Shown here one piece after another: positions 4,742 through 12,023 of a stretch of DNA of 64,000 bases. Position 1 is the first letter of the stretch. Each line of letters begins with the position of its first letter. A model generated the notes under the pieces. That model did not search any database. It saw only the letters and a program-made list of their open reading frames with translations, and was not told where the DNA came from. This stretch comes from Aeromicrobium ginsengisoli (GTDB lineage Bacteria; Actinomycetota; Actinomycetes; Propionibacteriales; Nocardioidaceae). The translations under genes and the position numbers were made by a program. The DNA lies in the NCBI RefSeq assembly GCF_004134905.2, contig NZ_SDPQ02000002.1:186001-250000 (forward strand). Reading direction: 5' to 3'.

Positions 4742-4769
4742 CCATCCGGGACTGAGGCAGCTTCGAATG
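4742..4769 (+). promoter_or_regulatory. Candidate SigK-type promoter of sigK-rskA
   Basis: CCATCC (4742-4747), 16 nt, then CGAATG (4764-4769). The same architecture recurs before the FAD-oxidoreductase operon and before the molybdopterin-oxidoreductase/fasciclin operon. As I recall, mycobacterial SigK recognises a CCATCC/CCGAAT-type pair, so this would be an autoregulatory promoter. An in-frame ATG (4767) lies inside the -10 element, which argues against it being the start codon. Confidence 0.6.
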
Positions 4770-4802
4770 ATTGGCAAGAACCCCTTTCGATCGGAGAGCC
4801 AC

Positions 4803-5399
4803 GTGACCCGCAGCGCTGCGCACCTGCGCCTTGCCGACGCGTCGTCCGACGAGCCGGCCGCCGACGCAGGCCAGCTCCTCGTCCGCGTGGGACGGGGTGA
4901 CGAACAGGCGTTCGCCGCGGTCTACGACCTGCTCGGCGCCTCGGTCTACGGTCTGGCCCGCCGGGTCGTACGCGATCCGGCCCGGGCCGAGGAGATCGCC
5001 CAAGAGGTGTTCATCCAGGTCTGGCAGTCCGCGGCCCGGTTCGACCCGGCACGGGGGAGTGCGAAGGGCTGGGTCATGACACTCGCCCACCGCAGGGCGG
5101 TCGACGCCGTCCGGCACGACCAGGCGGCGACCAACCGCGAGAACAGCTATGACTGGTCGAACGGCCCCGACTACGACGAGGTCGAGGAGACCGTCAGCAT
5201 GACCCTCGAGCACGAACAGGTGCGCCGCTGCCTCGAGGGGCTCACCGAGCTGCAGCGTGAGGCCGTCAACCTGGCCTACTACAACGGCCACACCTACGCC
5301 GAGGTCGCGGAAGTCCTCGACGCCAATCCCGCCACCATCAAGACCCGGATACGCGACGGTCTCGTCCGCCTGCGCGACTGCATCGGAGTTCCGGCATGA
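4803..5399 (+). CDS. sigK: ECF RNA polymerase sigma factor SigK
   Basis: This 198-residue ECF sigma factor has region 2 around RAEEIAQEVFIQVWQSAARF and the DNA-melting segment GWVMTLAHRRAVDAVR. Region 4 is the helix-turn-helix YAEVAEVLDANPATIKTRIRDG. The GTG at 4803 is chosen because a good Shine-Dalgarno (GGAGAG) sits about 5 nt upstream; an ATG at 4767 in the same frame lies within the putative -10 box. The next gene overlaps by 4 bp and encodes an RskA-like anti-sigma factor. The downstream FAD-oxidoreductase/DUF1365/DUF1295 genes match the neighbours of mycobacterial sigK (Rv0445c locus), which supports the SigK assignment over other ECF groups. It is expected to drive the three matching promoters in this window. 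Confidence 0.88.
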   Translation: MTRSAAHLRLADASSDEPAADAGQLLVRVGRGDEQAFAAVYDLLGASVYGLARRVVRDPARAEEIAQEVFIQVWQSAARFDPARGSAKGWVMTLAHRRAVDAVRHDQAATNRENSYDWSNGPDYDEVEETVSMTLEHEQVRRCLEGLTELQREAVNLAYYNGHTYAEVAEVLDANPATIKTRIRDGLVRLRDCIGVPA

Positions 5400-6097
5400 C
5401 CACAGATCTGCACTCCCTCCTCGCACCGTACGTCCTCGACGCCCTCGAACCTGCCGAGCGCGCGCAGTTCGAGGCGCACCTCGTGCAGTGCCCCGACTGC
5501 CGGTCCGAGCTCGGCGGCCTGCAGGCGACGGCGACCCGGCTCGGCGAGTCCCAGAGCCAGGAGCCCCCGGCCGCCCTGCGCCAGAGGCTGCTGGCGGCGA
5601 TCGGCTCGATCCCGCAGGAGCGCCCGCTCGTCACCTCGATCAACCAACGTCGCGGACTGCGCCAGAGGCTGCCGCAGCTCGTCGCAGCGGCGGCGCTCGT
5701 GCTGGCTGCCGCGGGTGGTGGAGGCTACCTCGTCGAGCGCGACCATGCGCAGGACCGGGAGCGCCAGCTCGCCGACATCACCTCCGTCCTCGGCGCGGCT
5801 GACGCCGCCACCACGGCGCAGGACTTCCCCAACGGCGGGACGGTCCGCCTCGTCACGTCCAAGAAGCGCGATGCCGCCGTGGTCGTCGCCCACAGCCTGC
5901 CGGCGCTCGACGGCGGCAAGGTCTATCAGGTCTGGCTCATCAGGAGCTCCAAGGCCGAGTCGCAGGGCACGTTCTCCCGATCCGGCGAGATGGTCATGAA
6001 GGACCTGTCCAGCGCCGACGAGCTGGCGGTGACGGTCGAGCCCAGCGGTGGTTCCGACCAGCCCACGACGGCGCCGGTGCTGAACGTACCGGTGTGA
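5396..6097 (+). CDS. rskA: Anti-sigma-K factor RskA
   Basis: A 233-residue single-pass membrane protein starting at an ATG that overlaps the sigK stop (ATGA). The cytoplasmic N-terminal part carries an H-x3-C-x2-C motif (His28, Cys32, Cys35) like zinc-associated anti-sigma domains. A transmembrane helix lies at about residues 93-111. The extracytoplasmic C-terminal part matches the RskA domain (motif KVYQVWLI). In the known system RskA holds SigK at the membrane and regulated proteolysis releases it; the same is inferred here from gene order and domain layout. The gene ends 74 bp before the next unit, which has its own SigK-like promoter. Confidence 0.88.
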   Translation: MTTDLHSLLAPYVLDALEPAERAQFEAHLVQCPDCRSELGGLQATATRLGESQSQEPPAALRQRLLAAIGSIPQERPLVTSINQRRGLRQRLPQLVAAAALVLAAAGGGGYLVERDHAQDRERQLADITSVLGAADAATTAQDFPNGGTVRLVTSKKRDAAVVVAHSLPALDGGKVYQVWLIRSSKAESQGTFSRSGEMVMKDLSSADELAVTVEPSGGSDQPTTAPVLNVPV

Positions 6098-6106
6098 CTC
6101 CCTGAC

Positions 6107-6134
6107 CAATCCATGCGTTCGCCGGCTTCGAACT
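6107..6134 (+). promoter_or_regulatory. Candidate SigK-type promoter of the FAD-oxidoreductase operon
   Basis: CAATCC (6107-6112), 16 nt, then CGAACT (6129-6134). Spacing and -10 core are the same as at 4742 and 11233. The predicted transcript would start near 6141 and have a leader of about 30 nt with a GGAG-like ribosome site before the ATG at 6172. Confidence 0.6.
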
Positions 6135-6171
6135 CTGGGTAGTACCGGTCCTTCGGAGCAGGGAGTTCAGC

Positions 6172-7434
6172 ATGGGCAGACGACAGGTCGCCGTCATCGG
6201 GAGTGGAGTGGCGGGCCTGACCGCCGGCTATCTCCTGCAACGCGTCGCCGACGTGACGATGTACGAGGCCGACGGGCGGCTGGGTGGCCATGCGCACACG
6301 CATGAGCTGCTCGACCCCGACGGCCGTTCGCTCAACGTCGACAGCGGCTTCATCGTGCACAACCGGCAGACGTACCCGAACCTGACCCGCCTGTTCGACG
6401 AGCTCGGCGTCGAGACGCAGGAGTCCGAGATGAGCATGTCGATCCGGTGCGACGGCTGTGGGCTGCAGTACGCCGGCGCGCTCGGCGCGAGTGGGCTGTT
6501 CCCGACGATGCGCAACGCGGCGAACCCGCGCTTCCTCTACATGCTGACCGAGGTCAAGCGCTTCCACCGCCGTGCCCGGCGGCACCTCGCCGCCACCGAG
6601 GCGGACGACCTGACGCTCGACGAGTTTCTCGCCGAGGGCCGGTTCAGCCGCTACTTCCGCACCCATTTCGTCGTGCCCATGGTGGCCTGCGTGTGGTCGT
6701 GCGCCCCAGCAGAGGCCGGCGCCTATCCGGCGCGTTACCTCTTCGAGTTCCTCGCCAACCACGGCATGCTGTCGGTACGCGGCTCGCACCCCTGGCGGAC
6801 CGTGACCGGAGGATCGGCGAGCTACGTGGACAAGGTCGGCAAGCAGCTCTCGGCGGTCAACCTGCTGTCGCCCGTCAGGTCCGTCGTGCGTACGACCGGC
6901 GGTGTCCGGGTCATCGACGCGGACGACCAGGCGGCTGAGTTCGACGCCGTCGTCATCGCGACGCACCCCGACCAGGCGCTCGCGATGCTGGCCGAGCCGA
7001 CGGCGGCCGAGACCGCTGCCCTGGGCGCGTGGACGTACTCGAAGAACCGCGTCGCGCTGCACACCGACGCCTCAGTCCTGCCGCCGCTCCCACGGGCCCA
7101 GGCCGCCTGGAACTACCAGATGCCGACCTGCGAGGCCGCCGGTGGCGAGGTCAACGTCACGTACGACATGACGCGGCTGCAGCGCCTGCCCGGCCGGTCG
7201 CGCTACCTCGTCACGCTGAACGGTGATGACTCGGTCGACGCCGGCCAGCAGATCGCGGAGATGCTCTACGAGCACCCGGTCTTCACCCCCGAGTCGGTCG
7301 CCACCCGCGCCGACCTGCCGGCCCTCAACGACGGCGTCATCGCGTACGCCGGGGCCTATCACGGCTGGGGATTCCACGAGGACGGCTGCCGCTCGGGCGT
7401 CGCCGCGGCCGAGAGCCTGGGTGCTGCTTGGTGA
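6172..7434 (+). CDS. FAD/NAD(P)-binding amine-oxidase-like oxidoreductase (Rv0449c-type)
   Basis: A 420-residue flavoprotein with the dinucleotide-binding motif VAVIGSGVAGLTAG at the very N-terminus, then an acidic residue at the end of strand 2 (MYEADGRLGGHAHTH). This is the COG2907 type of predicted FAD-dependent oxidoreductase related to amine oxidases and phytoene desaturases. The C-terminal FAD contact region is near FHEDGCRSGVAAAESLG. The substrate is unknown. It begins a tightly packed operon (4-bp overlaps) with DUF1365 and DUF1295 genes, the same companions as in the mycobacterial sigK neighbourhood, where a fatty-acid modifying role has been suggested. Expression is probably SigK-dependent. 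No signal peptide, so cytosolic. Confidence 0.85.
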   Translation: MGRRQVAVIGSGVAGLTAGYLLQRVADVTMYEADGRLGGHAHTHELLDPDGRSLNVDSGFIVHNRQTYPNLTRLFDELGVETQESEMSMSIRCDGCGLQYAGALGASGLFPTMRNAANPRFLYMLTEVKRFHRRARRHLAATEADDLTLDEFLAEGRFSRYFRTHFVVPMVACVWSCAPAEAGAYPARYLFEFLANHGMLSVRGSHPWRTVTGGSASYVDKVGKQLSAVNLLSPVRSVVRTTGGVRVIDADDQAAEFDAVVIATHPDQALAMLAEPTAAETAALGAWTYSKNRVALHTDASVLPPLPRAQAAWNYQMPTCEAAGGEVNVTYDMTRLQRLPGRSRYLVTLNGDDSVDAGQQIAEMLYEHPVFTPESVATRADLPALNDGVIAYAGAYHGWGFHEDGCRSGVAAAESLGAAW

Positions 7435-8159
7435 GAGAGGCGCTCGCGAGCTACGACGTCACGATCGGTCACCGCCGGCGTGACGGGTTCGAGTACGCCT
7501 TCACGAACCGCGGCCGCACGTGGCTGGTCGACCTCGACGACGTGCCACGGCTGCCCGGACCGCTGCGCAGGCTGTGCTCCTTCAGCTCCGGCGACCACCT
7601 CGGTGCCCCCTCGCGGTCGCTGCGCGAGAACGTCGACGCGTGGCTCGCCGAGCGTGGCGTCGACCCGCCGGCCACCGTGCGCATGCTCGCCAGCCCACGC
7701 GTGCTCGGCCACGTTTTCAACCCGCTCAGCCTGTTCTACTGCCATGACGCGGACGGCACGCTGACCCACGTCGTGGCCGAGGTCCGCAACACGTACGGCG
7801 GACGGCGCTGCTATCTCCTGGAGCCGGCCGACAACGGCCGGGCGACGACCGACAAGACGTTCTACGTGTCGCCGTTCCACGGCGTCGACGGGCACTACGA
7901 GCTGGTCGTGCCCGCGCCGGGCGACGAGCTCTCGGTCACGGTGACGCTGCGCCGGCCCGATCGCCCTCCGTTCGTCGCGACGATGCGCGGCACGCGCCGC
8001 GCCGACGCCCGCCTCGCGTCCGCACTGCGCAAGCCGTGGGCCAACTGGACGGTCGACGTGATGATCCGCGTCCACGGCATCCGGCTGTTCCTCAAGGGCC
8101 TGCGGCCGGCGTCGCGTCCCGACCATCAACCCGACGACCTGACCAGGAGCTCACGATGA
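7431..8159 (+). CDS. DUF1365 family protein
   Basis: A 242-residue protein starting at a GTG that overlaps the oxidoreductase stop (GTGA); a TTG one codon earlier is an alternative. It matches the DUF1365 family, with the characteristic segment ASPRVLGHVFNPLSLFYC and the later segment VSPFHGVDGHYELVVP. The biochemical function is undetermined. It is usually encoded beside a COG2907 FAD oxidoreductase and a cyclopropane-fatty-acid-synthase-like methyltransferase. Here the methyltransferase is missing and a DUF1295 gene follows directly with a 4-bp overlap. No membrane segment is evident. A role in fatty-acid modification is inferred from partners only. Confidence 0.85.
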   Translation: MREALASYDVTIGHRRRDGFEYAFTNRGRTWLVDLDDVPRLPGPLRRLCSFSSGDHLGAPSRSLRENVDAWLAERGVDPPATVRMLASPRVLGHVFNPLSLFYCHDADGTLTHVVAEVRNTYGGRRCYLLEPADNGRATTDKTFYVSPFHGVDGHYELVVPAPGDELSVTVTLRRPDRPPFVATMRGTRRADARLASALRKPWANWTVDVMIRVHGIRLFLKGLRPASRPDHQPDDLTRSSR

Positions 8160-8941
8160 ACCAGATCGACGGCACCGCCCTCGCCCACACGCTGATCGGC
8201 GCCGCCGCCGCGATCGTGGTCACGCTCGGCATCACGTGCGTCGTCGCCAAGCGGATCGGCCGCCACAACGTCATCGACGTCGCGTGGGGCCTGATGTTCT
8301 GCGGCGCCGCCGTGGCCGCGTTCGTGGGCTCGTCGGGGCACGGCGACGACCTCCGCCGGTGGCTGCTCCTGGTGCTGACCGTCGCCTGGGGCTTGCGACT
8401 CGCGATCCACATCGGTGTGCGCAGCCGCGGTCACGGGGAGGACCCGCGCTACGCCAAGCTGCTCGAGGGCAAGGGCGAGCTGGGGATCATCCTCATCGTG
8501 TACGTCCTGCAGGGCGGCATCGCGTTCTTCGTCGCGCTCCCGGTGATGGTCGGGTCCCTGACGCACGGCTCCGTCGGCGTCCTGGCGTACGCCGGTGTGC
8601 TGCTGTGGGTCGTCGGCATCGCGTTCGAGGCGATCGGCGACCGCCAGCTCGCGGCCTACAAGGCCGATCCCGATCGCGGCCCGGTCATGGACCGTGGCCT
8701 GTGGGGCTGGACCCGTCACCCCAACTACTTCGGTGATGCCTGCGTGTGGGTCGGCCTGTTCCTCGTCGCTGCCGAGCACTGGCCCGGCGTCCTGACGATC
8801 CTGTCGCCGGCGCTCATGGTCTACCTGCTCGCGTTCGGCTCGGGCAAGCGTGTTCTCGAGCGCCACATGGCCGAGCGCCCCGGCTATCGCGCGTACATGG
8901 ACCGCACCTCGGGCTTCTTCCCGCTGCCGCCGCGCCGCTGA
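8156..8941 (+). CDS. DUF1295 membrane protein (steroid 5-alpha-reductase-like fold)
   Basis: A 261-residue polytopic membrane protein, start ATG overlapping the DUF1365 stop (ATGA). Several hydrophobic helices are followed by the family hallmark GLWGWTRHPNYFGDACVW near residues 180-200, shared with 3-oxo-5-alpha-steroid 4-dehydrogenases and isoprenylcysteine methyltransferases. A longer open frame starting at 8036 runs through DUF1365 out of frame and is not used. It is the last gene of the FAD-oxidoreductase operon, with a strong hairpin terminator 16 bp downstream. Its mycobacterial counterpart (Rv0446c) also sits beside sigK. Substrate unknown; a lipid reductase/desaturase-partner role is only inferred. 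Confidence 0.85.
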   Translation: MNQIDGTALAHTLIGAAAAIVVTLGITCVVAKRIGRHNVIDVAWGLMFCGAAVAAFVGSSGHGDDLRRWLLLVLTVAWGLRLAIHIGVRSRGHGEDPRYAKLLEGKGELGIILIVYVLQGGIAFFVALPVMVGSLTHGSVGVLAYAGVLLWVVGIAFEAIGDRQLAAYKADPDRGPVMDRGLWGWTRHPNYFGDACVWVGLFLVAAEHWPGVLTILSPALMVYLLAFGSGKRVLERHMAERPGYRAYMDRTSGFFPLPPRR

Positions 8942-8956
8942 CGCGCCCCGGACACG

Positions 8957-8994
8957 ACGATGGGCCGCCTCCCGTGAGGGAGACGGCCCATCGT
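8957..8994. terminator. Bidirectional hairpin terminator
   Basis: ACGATGGGCCG (8957-8967) pairs with CGGCCCATCGT (8984-8994). The inner stem TCCC/GGGA closes on a GTGA loop with one mismatch. It lies between the convergent DUF1295 and fasciclin genes and can serve both. No long T-tract. Confidence 0.75.
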
Positions 8995-9007
8995 GTGGGT
9001 GATGCGC

Positions 9008-9658
9008 TCAGGCGGGCGGCATCAGGACGTTGTCGATCAGGTAGACCGTCGCGTTGGCGGTCTTGACGCCGCCGCAGATGACGGTGGCCTGGTCGCCGCC
9101 GACCTTGATGTCGTTGCCCGAACCGGTGACCTCGAGGTCGGCACCGTTGACGGTCTTGTGGGACCCGTCGATGTCGGCCGGAGCGATCTGTCCGGGGATC
9201 ACGTGATAGGTCAGGACGCTCGTCAGGGTGTCGGCACCGGCGGGGGTGCTGAGCGTCTTGAGCGTCTTCGCGTCGAGCTTGGCGAACGCGGAGTCGACCG
9301 GTGCGAACACCGTGAACTCAGCGCCGTTGAGCGTGTCGACGAGGTTGACGTCGGGGTTCAGCTGACCGGAGACGGCCTTGACCAGCGTCTTGAGCAGCGG
9401 GTTGTTGCTCGCCGCGGTCGCGACCGGGTCCTGCGCCATGCCGCTGACCGAGCCGGCACCGTCCGGGACGGCCTTGGCGTAGTCGGCGCAGCCCGCACCG
9501 ACCAGGTCGGCAGCCGGATCGGCCGCGGCGGAGCTGGTGGTCTCGGCCTTGGGCGATCCTTCGGACTTGTCGTCGCTCGAGCCGCACGCCGCGGTGAACA
9601 ACGACAACGAGACGGCCGCCGTGACGGCGAAGGTCTTCACAGTTGTACGCATCTTCAT
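9008..9658 (-). CDS. Fasciclin-domain lipoprotein (MPT83/MPT70-like)
   Basis: A 216-residue exported protein starting at the ATG at 9658, preceded by AAGGAGAG; the frame stays open upstream but into the neighbouring gene's 3' end. Signal sequence with lipobox FTAAC and lipidated Cys25, then a Ser/Asp/Ala-rich linker and one FAS1 domain. The H1 and H2 signatures are readable as [16 protein letters not shown] and LTYHVIPG. In mycobacteria the fasciclin proteins MPT70 and MPT83 are the best-known SigK targets. Here the gene sits 26 bp after a molybdopterin oxidoreductase in an operon with a SigK-like promoter, which strengthens the link. Probable role in surface adhesion or as a periplasmic partner of the oxidoreductase; unproven. 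Confidence 0.9.
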
Positions 9659-9684
9659 CTCTCCTTGTTGGGGTTGGGGTCGTG

Positions 9685-11226
9685 CTACTCGACGCGGAAC
9701 TGGACGCTGTGCCAGCCGGTCGTCCCGTTCGGGCGAATGCTCGCCCGATCGGAGGTCTGGGTGTCGCCGTCCTTGGTCGTGGCGCGGACGGTCAGGGTGT
9801 GGTTGCCGGGCGTCGCGTCGTCCCACTGCCAGCTCCACTGGCGCCAGGTCTCGACGGTGTCCTCGGTGCCGAGCTTCGCGGCCTGCCACGGGCCCTTGTC
9901 GACCCGCACCTCGACCTGCTCGATGCCGACGGTCTGCGCCCAGGCGACGCCGCCGACGCGCACGCGGTCGGCCGGGAAGGTCTGGAACGACTTCGGCACG
10001 TCGATGCGCGACGAGAACTTGATCGGCGCCTCGGCGTCGTACTCACGCGTCGTCCAGTACGCCTTGAAGTCCGCGAAGCGCGTCACCTCGAGGTCAGTCA
10101 GCCACTTGGTCGCGGAGACGTAGCCGTACAGGCCGGGCACGACGAGGCGGGCCGGGAAGCCGTGCGCCAGTGGGAGCGGCTCGCCGTTCATGCCGATCGC
10201 GACCATCGAGCTGCGGTCGTCGGTGAGCGCCTCGAGCGGGGTGCCGGCGGTCCACTTGTCGGCGCTCGTGCTCTTGACCGCGTCGGCGCCCGACTTCACC
10301 CCGGCCTGCTCGAGCAGGTCCTTGACCAGCACGCCGGTCCACACGGCGTTGCCGACGTAGGGTCCGCCGACCTCGTTGGAGACGCAGGTCAGCGTGATGC
10401 GGTGCTCGGCGAGCGGCATGTCGAGGAGGTCGCGGAAGCTGAGGTTGACCTCGTTGTCGACCATGCCGTGGATGCGGAGGTTCCAGCCCTCGGCCGGTAC
10501 GTCGGGGATCCGCAGCGCGGTGTCGACGCGGTAGAAGTCGCGGTTCGCCGTCACGTACGGGCTGATGCCCGTGACGTCGACCTGCGTCCCGGCGGGCACC
10601 GGCGGAGCGGCGACGGCGGGCTTGGGCAGCCGGATCCCGGCGCGAGACGCGACCGCTGCCGCCGTGCCGTACAGCGAGTTGACGACGCCGCCGACGACGA
10701 CGAGAGCGCCGACGCCGATCACGGCCTTGAGGAAGTCGCGGCGGCGCAGCAGCCCGGCCGGAGCCGCCTCGCGCGTACGTCGGAGGGTGACCAGCAGGAT
10801 CGCGAGCGCGGCAAGGCTGACGGCGACGGTCAGCAACGAGGGAACGAGGGTGAGGGCCCGGCTCGCGGTGGCCGTGCGGTCCACGGCTGCGGCGGCCACG
10901 GCGATCAGCCCGATGACCGCCACGCCAGCGGTGGCGATCGCCGGTCGGGTGCGGCCGATGATCCCGGCAACGGCGGCGAGCAGTGCGAGCGTCGCCACGA
11001 CGCCGCCGATGAGCACCGGCTTGTCGTTGGTGCCGAACTGCTCGACCGCGAAGTCCTTGAGCATCGGTGGCGCCAGGTCGATCGCCCGGTTGCCGACCGA
11101 CTCGATCGGTGACGGCACGCCGTTGAGGAGCGCAGCGACCGCCGTACCGGTGGCCACTCCGGCCGCGGCGGCCAGCACGCCCGCCAGTGCGCCGGCCCAC
11201 CATGGGCTCTTCGACTCCGTGTTCAC
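9685..11226 (-). CDS. Membrane-anchored molybdopterin-dependent oxidoreductase (sulfite-oxidase fold) with internal Tat motif
   Basis: A 513-residue protein, GTG start at 11226. Five hydrophobic helices lie at about 10-34, 70-90, 97-116, 128-147 and 167-185. They are followed by an extracytoplasmic sulfite-oxidase-type Moco domain; Cys281 in TCVSNEVGG is the expected Mo ligand. A C-terminal Ig-like dimerisation domain follows. Immediately before the fifth helix is RRRDFLK, a twin-arginine motif, so the folded cofactor domain may be exported by Tat after Sec inserts the first helices. The SigK-like -10 ends 6 nt before the GTG, predicting a leaderless mRNA. Substrate unknown; methionine-sulfoxide or sulfite chemistry is possible by analogy. 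The fasciclin gene follows in the same operon. Confidence 0.9.
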
Positions 11227-11232
11227 ACACGT

Positions 11233-11260
11233 GGTTCGCCGCGAGCGTCCGCCTGGATTG
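11233..11260 (-). promoter_or_regulatory. Candidate SigK-type promoter of the molybdopterin oxidoreductase-fasciclin operon
   Basis: Read on the minus strand: CAATCC (11260-11255), 16 nt, CGAACC (11238-11233), then 6 nt to the GTG start. The -35 hexamer and spacing are identical to those of the element at 6107. Confidence 0.6.
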
Positions 11261-11345: not shown

Positions 11346-11642
11346 TCAGGCGACGGCCGGCATCCTGCTGCGACGGCGGCTGGCGACGCGGTGTCCCAGG
11401 GCGACCAGCCCGAAGCCGACGGCGAAGATCGCGCAACACACCAGTCCGTACCCGACCGGTATCGTGTCCGGGTCCTTCGGGAACGCCGAGTCGTCCCCGC
11501 CAACCCACATGCGGGTCAGGTAGAGGCCCTGGAACACGAACGCCCAGAGGTAGGCGATGGCGTACGCCAGGTTGGCGGCGAGGTGTGACCGGAGGAAGAA
11601 CCCCAACGGGAACGCGAGCAGGATCGTGACGATGGCGATCAT
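11346..11642 (-). CDS. Small membrane protein, unknown function
   Basis: 98 residues with an N-terminal hydrophobic helix (IVTILLAFPLGFFL), a second and third segment around AYLWAFVFQGLYLTRMWV, a short polar loop with GGDD and KDPDT, and a C-terminal helix (YGLVCCAIFAVGFGLVAL) ending in an Arg-rich tail. It follows the 123-residue membrane protein gene by 9 bp on the same strand, so the pair is probably co-transcribed and may form a complex. I do not recognise the family. The pair lies back-to-back with a NarL-type two-component system and could be its target. Confidence 0.6.
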   Translation of the reverse strand: MIAIVTILLAFPLGFFLRSHLAANLAYAIAYLWAFVFQGLYLTRMWVGGDDSAFPKDPDTIPVGYGLVCCAIFAVGFGLVALGHRVASRRRSRMPAVA

Positions 11643-11651
11643 GACGACACC

Positions 11652-12023
11652 TCAATCCATCACGGCGGCCGACCGCCGTGCCGGTGAGAACATCAGCACG
11701 AGCGACGTGAGCGTGAGGATGGTGAAGACCGTCACCAGGACCTTGATGAAGGCCTCGACGTCCATGAAGAACGCGGGCAGCGCGGTGAGCATCGAGACGA
11801 TGCGGGCACCGGCGACGACCCGGATGGCCGCTCCGCTCGCCGAGCGCCACGCGATGACCACGGCGACGATCGTGATCAGGCCGCAGATCGAGCCCAGGAT
11901 GAGGATGCCCAGCGGTGGGCCGACCTCGCCGTCTGACGGCGCCTCCAGGAAGCTCGGCAGATCGAGGACGCCGAGCAGACCCGCGAGGGCGAGTCCGACT
12001 TTGTTCTTGGTCGTGAGGGTCAT
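11652..12023 (-). CDS. Small membrane protein, unknown function
   Basis: 123 residues with an ATG start and a clear AAGGAG ribosome site. The chain shows four hydrophobic segments (KVGLALAGLLGVLDLPSF; GILILGSICGLITIVAVVIAW; a middle helix; VLVTVFTILTLTSLVLMF) and no recognisable catalytic motif. It is the first gene of a two-gene unit with the 98-residue membrane protein and is divergent from the response-regulator gene at 12176. No family is recognised; regulation by the adjacent two-component system is a guess from position. Confidence 0.65.
   Translation of the reverse strand: MTLTTKNKVGLALAGLLGVLDLPSFLEAPSDGEVGPPLGILILGSICGLITIVAVVIAWRSASGAAIRVVAGARIVSMLTALPAFFMDVEAFIKVLVTVFTILTLTSLVLMFSPARRSAAVMD

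Follow-up and report, generated by a model that had tools for sequence, protein, structure and literature searches.

The question raised by this stretch of the Aeromicrobium ginsengisoli genome is whether a sigma factor of the extracytoplasmic function (ECF) type lies side by side with the genes that it controls. The window, i.e. the whole stretch of 64,000 nucleotides (nt) that was analyzed, covers positions 186,001 to 250,000 of contig NZ_SDPQ02000002.1 (C2:186001-250000 in our numbering) in a genome of 4,005,926 bases on 7 contigs. A sequence-only reading had seen three copies of a SigK-type promoter in it, before sigK-rskA, before an operon starting with a FAD-dependent amine-oxidase-like oxidoreductase (FADOR) and before an operon of a molybdopterin oxidoreductase (SUOX) and a fasciclin gene. 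We think that the window very probably contains more than half of a SigK-RskA regulon under autoregulation, which most likely is fed by two SigKs and whose products act on the envelope and its lipids.

For the activity of the promoters, their sharing by both SigKs, the signal and the enzyme products, we infer the following course of events. As in the Mycobacterium tuberculosis pair, RskA1 would keep SigK1 bound to the membrane up to the arrival of a releasing signal, and RNA polymerase with the freed SigK would then read gaCCMATCC-N16-CGAAy before the sigK operon itself, before FADOR-DUF1365-DUF1295 and before SUOX-fasciclin. A second pair, SigK2-RskA2, lies about 20 kb away together with its own cyclopropane-fatty-acid (CFA) synthase, and a further CFA synthase is found elsewhere behind a like promoter; the regulon would thus be common to two sigma factors, each under the control of its own input. 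The products are expected to modify membrane fatty acids by methylation, desaturation and oxygenation, and to repair or protect the envelope. SigK, RskA and the promoter type are already known, and the details appear, provisionally, to be new: among the open-licence papers searched, none on SigK of Aeromicrobium was found, and only the Rhodobacter paper combined SigK, singlet oxygen and cyclopropane as search terms.

The promoter sites and their conservation

The pattern CMATCC-N16-CGAA has exactly three exact matches in the window and no others. Promoter 1 (CCATCC-N16-CGAA, 4742..4767, plus strand) is located 5' of sigK-rskA, promoter 2 (CAATCC-N16-CGAA, 6107..6132, plus strand) 5' of the FADOR operon and promoter 3 (CAATCC-N16-CGAA, 11235..11260, minus strand) 5' of SUOX. 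The three sites and their 16-nt spacers are thus confirmed at the positions originally proposed, and the accompanying statement that all of them are suitably positioned 5' of a start codon holds in general, the exception being sigK, where the -10 element and the ATG at 4767 share bases. CCATCC-N16-CGAAT is reportedly the consensus that Veyrier described for the mycobacterial SigK in 2008. Dinucleotide shuffles of the window (n = 100) contained 0.23 matches on average, and three were reached in 1 of the 100. Taken by itself, the match count in the window is evidence of moderate strength.

More telling is the comparison with sigK loci of related genera, which the sequence-only reading had proposed as a check. 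The wider set comprised the best 80 of 344 confirmed SigK loci, all of them actinobacterial by title. In these, the spacing of 16 is strongly kept, with 109 matches versus 1, 1, 7, 6, 5 and 8 at spacings of 13, 14, 15, 17, 18 and 19, respectively. Counted from the sigK match, 58 of the 80 loci have an N16 site in the interval from -400 to +60, as opposed to at most 1 locus for any other spacing from 12 to 20. Sorted by downstream gene, the 109 sites precede SigK (58), FAS1 (15), SUOX (9), FADOR (3) and other genes (24). Within the genus, 49 genomes were searched, and SigK was found in 45, FADOR in 38, the CFA synthase CFA1 in 37 and SUOX in 38 at the E-value limits used; 30 loci were fetched and compared per gene. 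The N16 site is present 5' of FADOR in 30/30 loci, 5' of SigK in 29/30 (the remaining locus has CCATCT), 5' of SUOX in 28/30 (of the two misses, one shows CAATCA with the 16-nt spacer and one no such element) and 5' of CFA1 in 3/30. Spacings of 12-15 and 17-20 gave no match in these genus sets, except for a single N12 match at SigK. Judged by these comparisons, it is the conservation and not the core count that establishes the sites as real, and the three window sites are SigK-type promoters, as proposed: the neighboring sigma factor passes the NCBIfam SigK model, the N16 site is conserved in the genus and in other actinobacteria, and the two features that mark membership in a regulon of SigK, namely CMATCC-N16-CGAA promoters 5' of sigK and 5' of a fasciclin operon, are both present.

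A weight matrix agrees with this. It was trained on 104 of the 109 related-locus sites, with the sites of the two nearest relatives (L024, L025) excluded, and was applied to the window, to all 12 exact matches in the genome and to selected loci. Promoters 1, 2 and 3 score 30.1, 25.6 and 24.3 bits, compared to 8.3 bits for the best non-site sequence of the window. Reversal of the 80 loci left 0 matches of at least 20 bits in 1.46 Mb, versus 105 in the real sequence, the same 80 loci being the training source. Since the matrix covered the window and the exact genome matches, weaker members of the regulon may be missed.

SigK1, RskA1 and the operons in the window

The gene of SigK1 (sigK, 4803..5399, plus strand, with the start revised to GTG) encodes an ECF sigma factor that reaches 259.9 bits with NF007228, the NCBIfam SigK model (cut-off 226), matches the M. 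tuberculosis SigK structure PDB 4nqw_A with an E-value of 3.8e-45, and is 95% identical to SigK of Aeromicrobium sp. Root344. Its open frame reaches back to the ATG at 4767. As this ATG overlaps the -10 element, a transcript from promoter 1 would be unable to use it; the GTG at 4803 lies 35 nt past CGAA, has GGAGAG upstream, and a start codon is found at the equivalent place in relatives. The sigK start is probably GTG 4803 rather than ATG 4767.

Directly after sigK follows rskA (RskA1, 5396..6097, plus strand), which codes for a membrane anti-sigma factor that combines a zf-HC2 domain with an RskA C-terminal domain. RskA1 exceeds the cut-offs of PF10099 (90.2 bits) and PF13490 (36.5 bits), stays just under the cut-off of 27 for PF22618 (RskA_N, 24.8 bits), and carries an H-x3-C-x2-C motif at residue 28. 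RskA2 likewise is over the cut-offs of PF10099 and PF13490, by which both proteins belong to RskA, and under that of PF22618 (20.6 bits). Helix 1 of the anti-sigma factors (HSLLAPYVLDAL, HTLLAPYSLDAL) resembles the AS19-1 motif HTLAGAYALDAL (PMC7406223) in a comparison by eye. The sigma factors SigK1 and SigK2 contain exactly two cysteines each, placed 50 residues apart (C155/C205 in SigK1 by open-frame numbering, C153/C203 in the SigK2 fragment), and in the alignment with 4nqw_A these match the C133/C183 pair of M. tuberculosis SigK (ECF18/19 archetype).

The operon behind promoter 2 consists of FADOR (6172..7434, plus strand; PF01593, 77.1 bits), with 39 nt between CGAA and its ATG at 6172, a DUF1365 protein (7428..8159, plus strand; PF07103, 190.4 bits) and a DUF1295 membrane protein (8156..8941, plus strand, ATG at 8156; PF06966, 218.1 bits). 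Behind promoter 3 lies SUOX (9685..11226, minus strand; PF00174, 150.9 bits), which combines a sulfite-oxidase fold with an N-terminal extension and starts with GTG, followed downstream in the same operon by a lipoprotein-like fasciclin (FAS1) gene (9008..9658, minus strand; PF02469, 89.5 bits). FAS1 comes after SUOX in 29/30 genus loci. A second molybdopterin oxidoreductase, 48% identical to SUOX, is encoded at C3:34147-35625, with no exact core match near it on that contig. On the minus strand of the window, at 11346-12023, there is a pair of short frames, membrane-like and without a match in Pfam, which are retained beside sigK1 in Root344 and 9AM.

The FADOR of the window has a particular history. 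In 26 of 30 genus CFA1 loci the order is FADOR-DUF1365-CFA1, and the gene that lies upstream in our genome is also present in 23 of these 26 native FADOR loci. Our genome, Root344 and G022 have kept the flanks, FADOR and DUF1365 are gone, and CFA1 is immediately preceded by a SigK site; at the CFA1 locus of 9AM, FADOR, DUF1365 and the SigK site are all absent. The FADOR adjoining sigK1 shares only 51-56% identity with its native counterparts. The simplest reading of these sequences is that two genes were lost in place while the promoter was kept, and that the diverged copy beside sigK1 took over the function. In our genome this CFA1 locus is found at C1:676863-679819, where CFA1 is located behind the SigK promoter that would drive FADOR-DUF1365-CFA1 in most of the relatives compared, and is followed by a frame that we take to be WhiB-like.

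Transcripts usually begin 5-10 nt past the -10 element. The GTG of SUOX at 11226 lies exactly 8 nt past CGAA of promoter 3, and the SUOX mRNA is for this reason predicted to be leaderless or nearly so. The start codon is found exactly 8 nt past CGAA and in frame for 26/26 native FADOR, 28/28 SUOX and 3/3 CFA1 sites, in comparison to 0/29 SigK sites and 0/4 sigK1-linked FADOR sites. In the Tsukamurella and Rhodococcus plasmid records (L231, L227), the start annotated by others is likewise 8 nt past CGAA. Many SigK promoters would thus imply leaderless or near-leaderless mRNAs, with sigK itself keeping a leader.

Relation to known systems and possible function

The closest described system is SigK-RskA of M. 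tuberculosis and M. bovis (mpt83-dipZ-mpt70), which likewise has SigK and an RskA-type anti-sigma factor in one operon and shares autoregulation and a fasciclin target with Aeromicrobium. The mycobacterial sigK locus also contains a CFA-type enzyme, UfaA1, and unknown proteins (PMC10540498). Unlike these mycobacteria, Aeromicrobium has two SigK-RskA pairs, combines fasciclin with a molybdopterin oxidoreductase instead of dipZ, has its CFA genes moved to two other places, and possesses SUOX and CFA1 promoters that would imply leaderless mRNAs. Further actinobacteria carry related loci with a different gene order and operon grouping. In Tsukamurella a SigK-type site (29.6 bits) precedes FADOR-DUF1365-CFA-lipocalin-SigK-RskA, in Rhodococcus such a site (23.3 bits) precedes hydrolase-FADOR-DUF1365-CFA, and in Actinoplanes and others FAS1-SUOX lies beside SigK. 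The “SigK” of Streptomyces coelicolor (PMC9205884) is a SigB-like factor and no relative of SigK in Aeromicrobium.

A second likeness concerns the content of the regulon. The ChrR-RpoE (sigmaE) singlet-oxygen regulon of R. sphaeroides and related alphaproteobacteria has the same product set, namely a CFA-type methylase, a FAD desaturase-like protein, a DUF1365 protein and fasciclin. DUF1365 is the domain of the furan-fatty-acid oxygenase UfaO, which in Rhodobacter sphaeroides acts downstream of UfaM and the FAD protein UfaD and converts methylated fatty acids into furan fatty acids by oxygenation (PMC7380195), and the RpoE regulon of this organism includes cfaS and a fasciclin gene (PMC7074977). 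In Chlamydomonas, the SAK1-dependent singlet-oxygen genes comprise two CFA synthases, a fasciclin-like protein, DUF1365 and DUF1295 (PMC4067076). Relatives of FADOR occur on 122 plasmid records, five of which were examined for neighbors: in Azospirillum and Mesorhizobium the FADOR relative adjoins an ECF factor and a ChrR-family anti-sigma factor, the Mesorhizobium terrae plasmid unites ECF-ChrR with FADOR-DUF1365-CFA, fasciclin, MsrPQ and DUF1295, in Tsukamurella the relative is accompanied by SigK, and in Rhodococcus and Cupriavidus the stretch shown is without a sigma factor. FADOR of the window is 42% identical over 413 amino acids to the Mesorhizobium gene adjoining ECF-ChrR, and the methylase, FAD and DUF1365 types that share the SigK promoter are 35-45% identical to the alphaproteobacterial genes beside ECF-ChrR. 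The Aeromicrobium system differs, however, in having an RskA-type anti-sigma factor and SigK as sigma factor. With the ChrR model TIGR02451, RskA2 reaches 21.3 bits (cut-off 124.5) and RskA1 is unlisted, so that the system may work like ChrR-sigmaE without being a member of that family; the loci of Mesorhizobium and Azospirillum yield no high score with the SigK matrix (13.7 and 10.7 bits at best).

It is conceivable, and we put it forward tentatively, that the actinobacterial SigK regulon is a counterpart of ChrR-sigmaE that directs furan or related oxygenated branched fatty acids and envelope-protecting fasciclin and molybdo-enzymes against photo-oxidative stress, and that in this Aeromicrobium clade it has two sensors and mostly leaderless mRNAs. 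The match of a SigK regulon from a harmless soil genus with the Rhodobacter singlet-oxygen regulons and the Chlamydomonas genes makes both the signal and the lipid product directly testable. A serious competitor, to which we would give a sizeable minority chance, is that the regulon serves general maintenance of the envelope and its redox state, such as repair of disulfides or methionine sulfoxides, and not photo-oxidative lipid modification. SUOX, which is related to SorA, SoxC, SorT and MsrP, though far under the NCBIfam cut-offs, would suit such a role by its distant relation to MsrP (45 bits versus 207), and so would the cysteine pair kept in both SigKs, which ties M. tuberculosis SigK to the redox state (PMC7509140). 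What speaks for lipids instead is that both family and context mark FADOR, DUF1365, CFA synthase and DUF1295 as types that modify lipids, and that this gene set recurs with fasciclin and MsrPQ beside a ChrR-family anti-sigma factor in Mesorhizobium.

The second SigK and the extent of the regulon

The sigK2 gene occupies C2:170431-171054 (minus strand), at a distance of 19.7 kb from the start of sigK1 as revised. Downstream of it come rskA2 and CFA2, which codes for a CFA synthase. SigK2 is 70% identical to SigK1 and scores 260.9 bits with NF007228. Two SigKs (E <= 1e-40) are found only in G000, G019 and G022 among the 49 genomes. In a tree with 82 rows, SigK1 clusters with the proteins of Root344 and 9AM (support 100/96). 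SigK2 clusters with five further rows from Aeromicrobium, plus one that falls in a sister clade (99/91). The SigK of the window is thus the clade-specific copy, and SigK2 is nearer to the usual SigK of the genus. A tentative, weaker SigK-like site, CAATCA-N17-CGAA, is found upstream of sigK2, before a lipoprotein-like gene that has no match in Pfam (region C2:168000-175000).

The genome contains five high-scoring sites, the additional two being located 5' of sigK2-rskA2 and of CFA1 on another contig. The idea that 6.5 kb comprise the bulk of the regulon is therefore borne out by count, with 3 of 5 sites and 7 of 11 genes by our reading of the operons, and it falls short in leaving out the second sigma factor and two cyclopropane synthases outside the window. 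The presence of a second SigK also means that the window sites cannot be assigned to the SigK of the window alone. The recognition helices of SigK1 and SigK2 are identical in 12/12 positions, and for this reason both likely share one regulon; region 2.4 agrees in 19/22 positions and the linker in 16/28. Still, the sites could belong to SigK1 alone, with SigK2 reading different, insulated promoters in spite of the similar motif, as the two proteins fall into separate supported clades at their limited identity, the flanking bases of the sigK1 and sigK2 sites differ, and the SigK2 operon carries a target gene of its own, CFA2. We consider this improbable. Beside the near-identity in regions 2.4 and the recognition helix, the sigK2 promoter scores 29.3 bits with the same matrix that gives 30.1 for sigK1, and the same motif lies 5' of FADOR and SUOX in other members of the genus, whose SigKs are single-copy and in several cases cluster with SigK2 in the tree. 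The two SigK-RskA pairs with one promoter type thus offer a natural case of paralogous sigma factors that share or divide a regulon.

Genome-wide matches and remaining alternatives

In the whole genome, the core at spacing 16 has 12 matches, and the 15 other spacings from 10 to 25 have a mean of 7.07 and a maximum of 13 (at spacing 21). The genome-wide scan suggested in the sequence-only reading thus finds the short core at N16 nearly indistinguishable from chance, close to the outcome that would have spoken against its regulon, and by this count alone the finding would fail. The distinction comes from the matrix: five of the 12 exact matches (sigK1, FADOR, SUOX, sigK2 and CFA1) score 24.3-30.1 bits, and the remaining seven -3.2 to 18.5 bits.

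Several points count against the regulon as we read it. The excess at spacing 16 is only marginal (Poisson P = 0.056), and as the core is so weakly enriched, the five sites depend on matrix score and context. Among the 80 related sigK loci, 22 are without an exact site near sigK, and 24 of the 109 related-locus sites precede unassigned genes. The match at C1:511413, with 18.5 bits, lies inside a frame on the opposite strand and is dismissed by context only. Furthermore, the genome encodes 16 further matches to SigK, and another ECF factor could read the site. As to the signal, reducing conditions free SigK from RskA in M. tuberculosis and oxidizing ones stabilize the complex (PMC7509140), and these data, by analogy, would point to a disulfide signal more than to singlet oxygen. 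Exposure of M. kansasii to light induced a pair of fasciclin genes and not the dipZ lying between them, and the SigK-activating signal is called obscure in the same paper (PMC9861118).

That another ECF factor reads these promoters, with or without SigK, is nevertheless quite unlikely in our view. ECF regulons can overlap, and in Streptomyces an overlap has been described for SigB-like factors (PMC9205884), but the motif precedes sigK itself in nearly all loci of the genus and in most of the wider set, as detailed above, and the other factors of the genome are all at <=30% identity to SigK. A chance resemblance, with the genes using ordinary housekeeping promoters, would agree with the genome-wide core count and is hardly credible given the spacing-specific conservation in the 80 loci and in the genus, the fixed 8-nt start distance and the matrix scores.

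A reversed-pattern control, which gave 0 matches genome-wide, was rejected as proof, because the neighboring spacings averaged 7.07; the zero looks stronger than it is, since the composition of the reversed pattern is unlike that of the motif. The GC pair at spacer positions 13-14 was also rejected as a defining rule for membership in the regulon. This pair occurs in 5/5 context-supported sites of the genome and 0/7 others, and the 109 outside sites have G and C at frequencies of 0.96 and 0.82, yet it varies across the genus, where 25/29 SigK, 18/30 FADOR and 20/28 SUOX sites carry it.

The seven other exact N16 matches were dismissed by context, six of them lying within long open frames or island-like DNA of lower GC content. 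At C1:21241-21266, a core match with 12.6 bits is located 12 nt 5' of the ATG of a 658-amino-acid frame, which we take to be threonyl-tRNA synthetase. Near-identical counterparts of this site exist in at least two other genomes (G006, G008), and it may for this reason have a role there. The region C1:488000-522000, finally, has a lower GC content (about 62% versus 68% in the window), is island-like and contains four of the twelve core matches.

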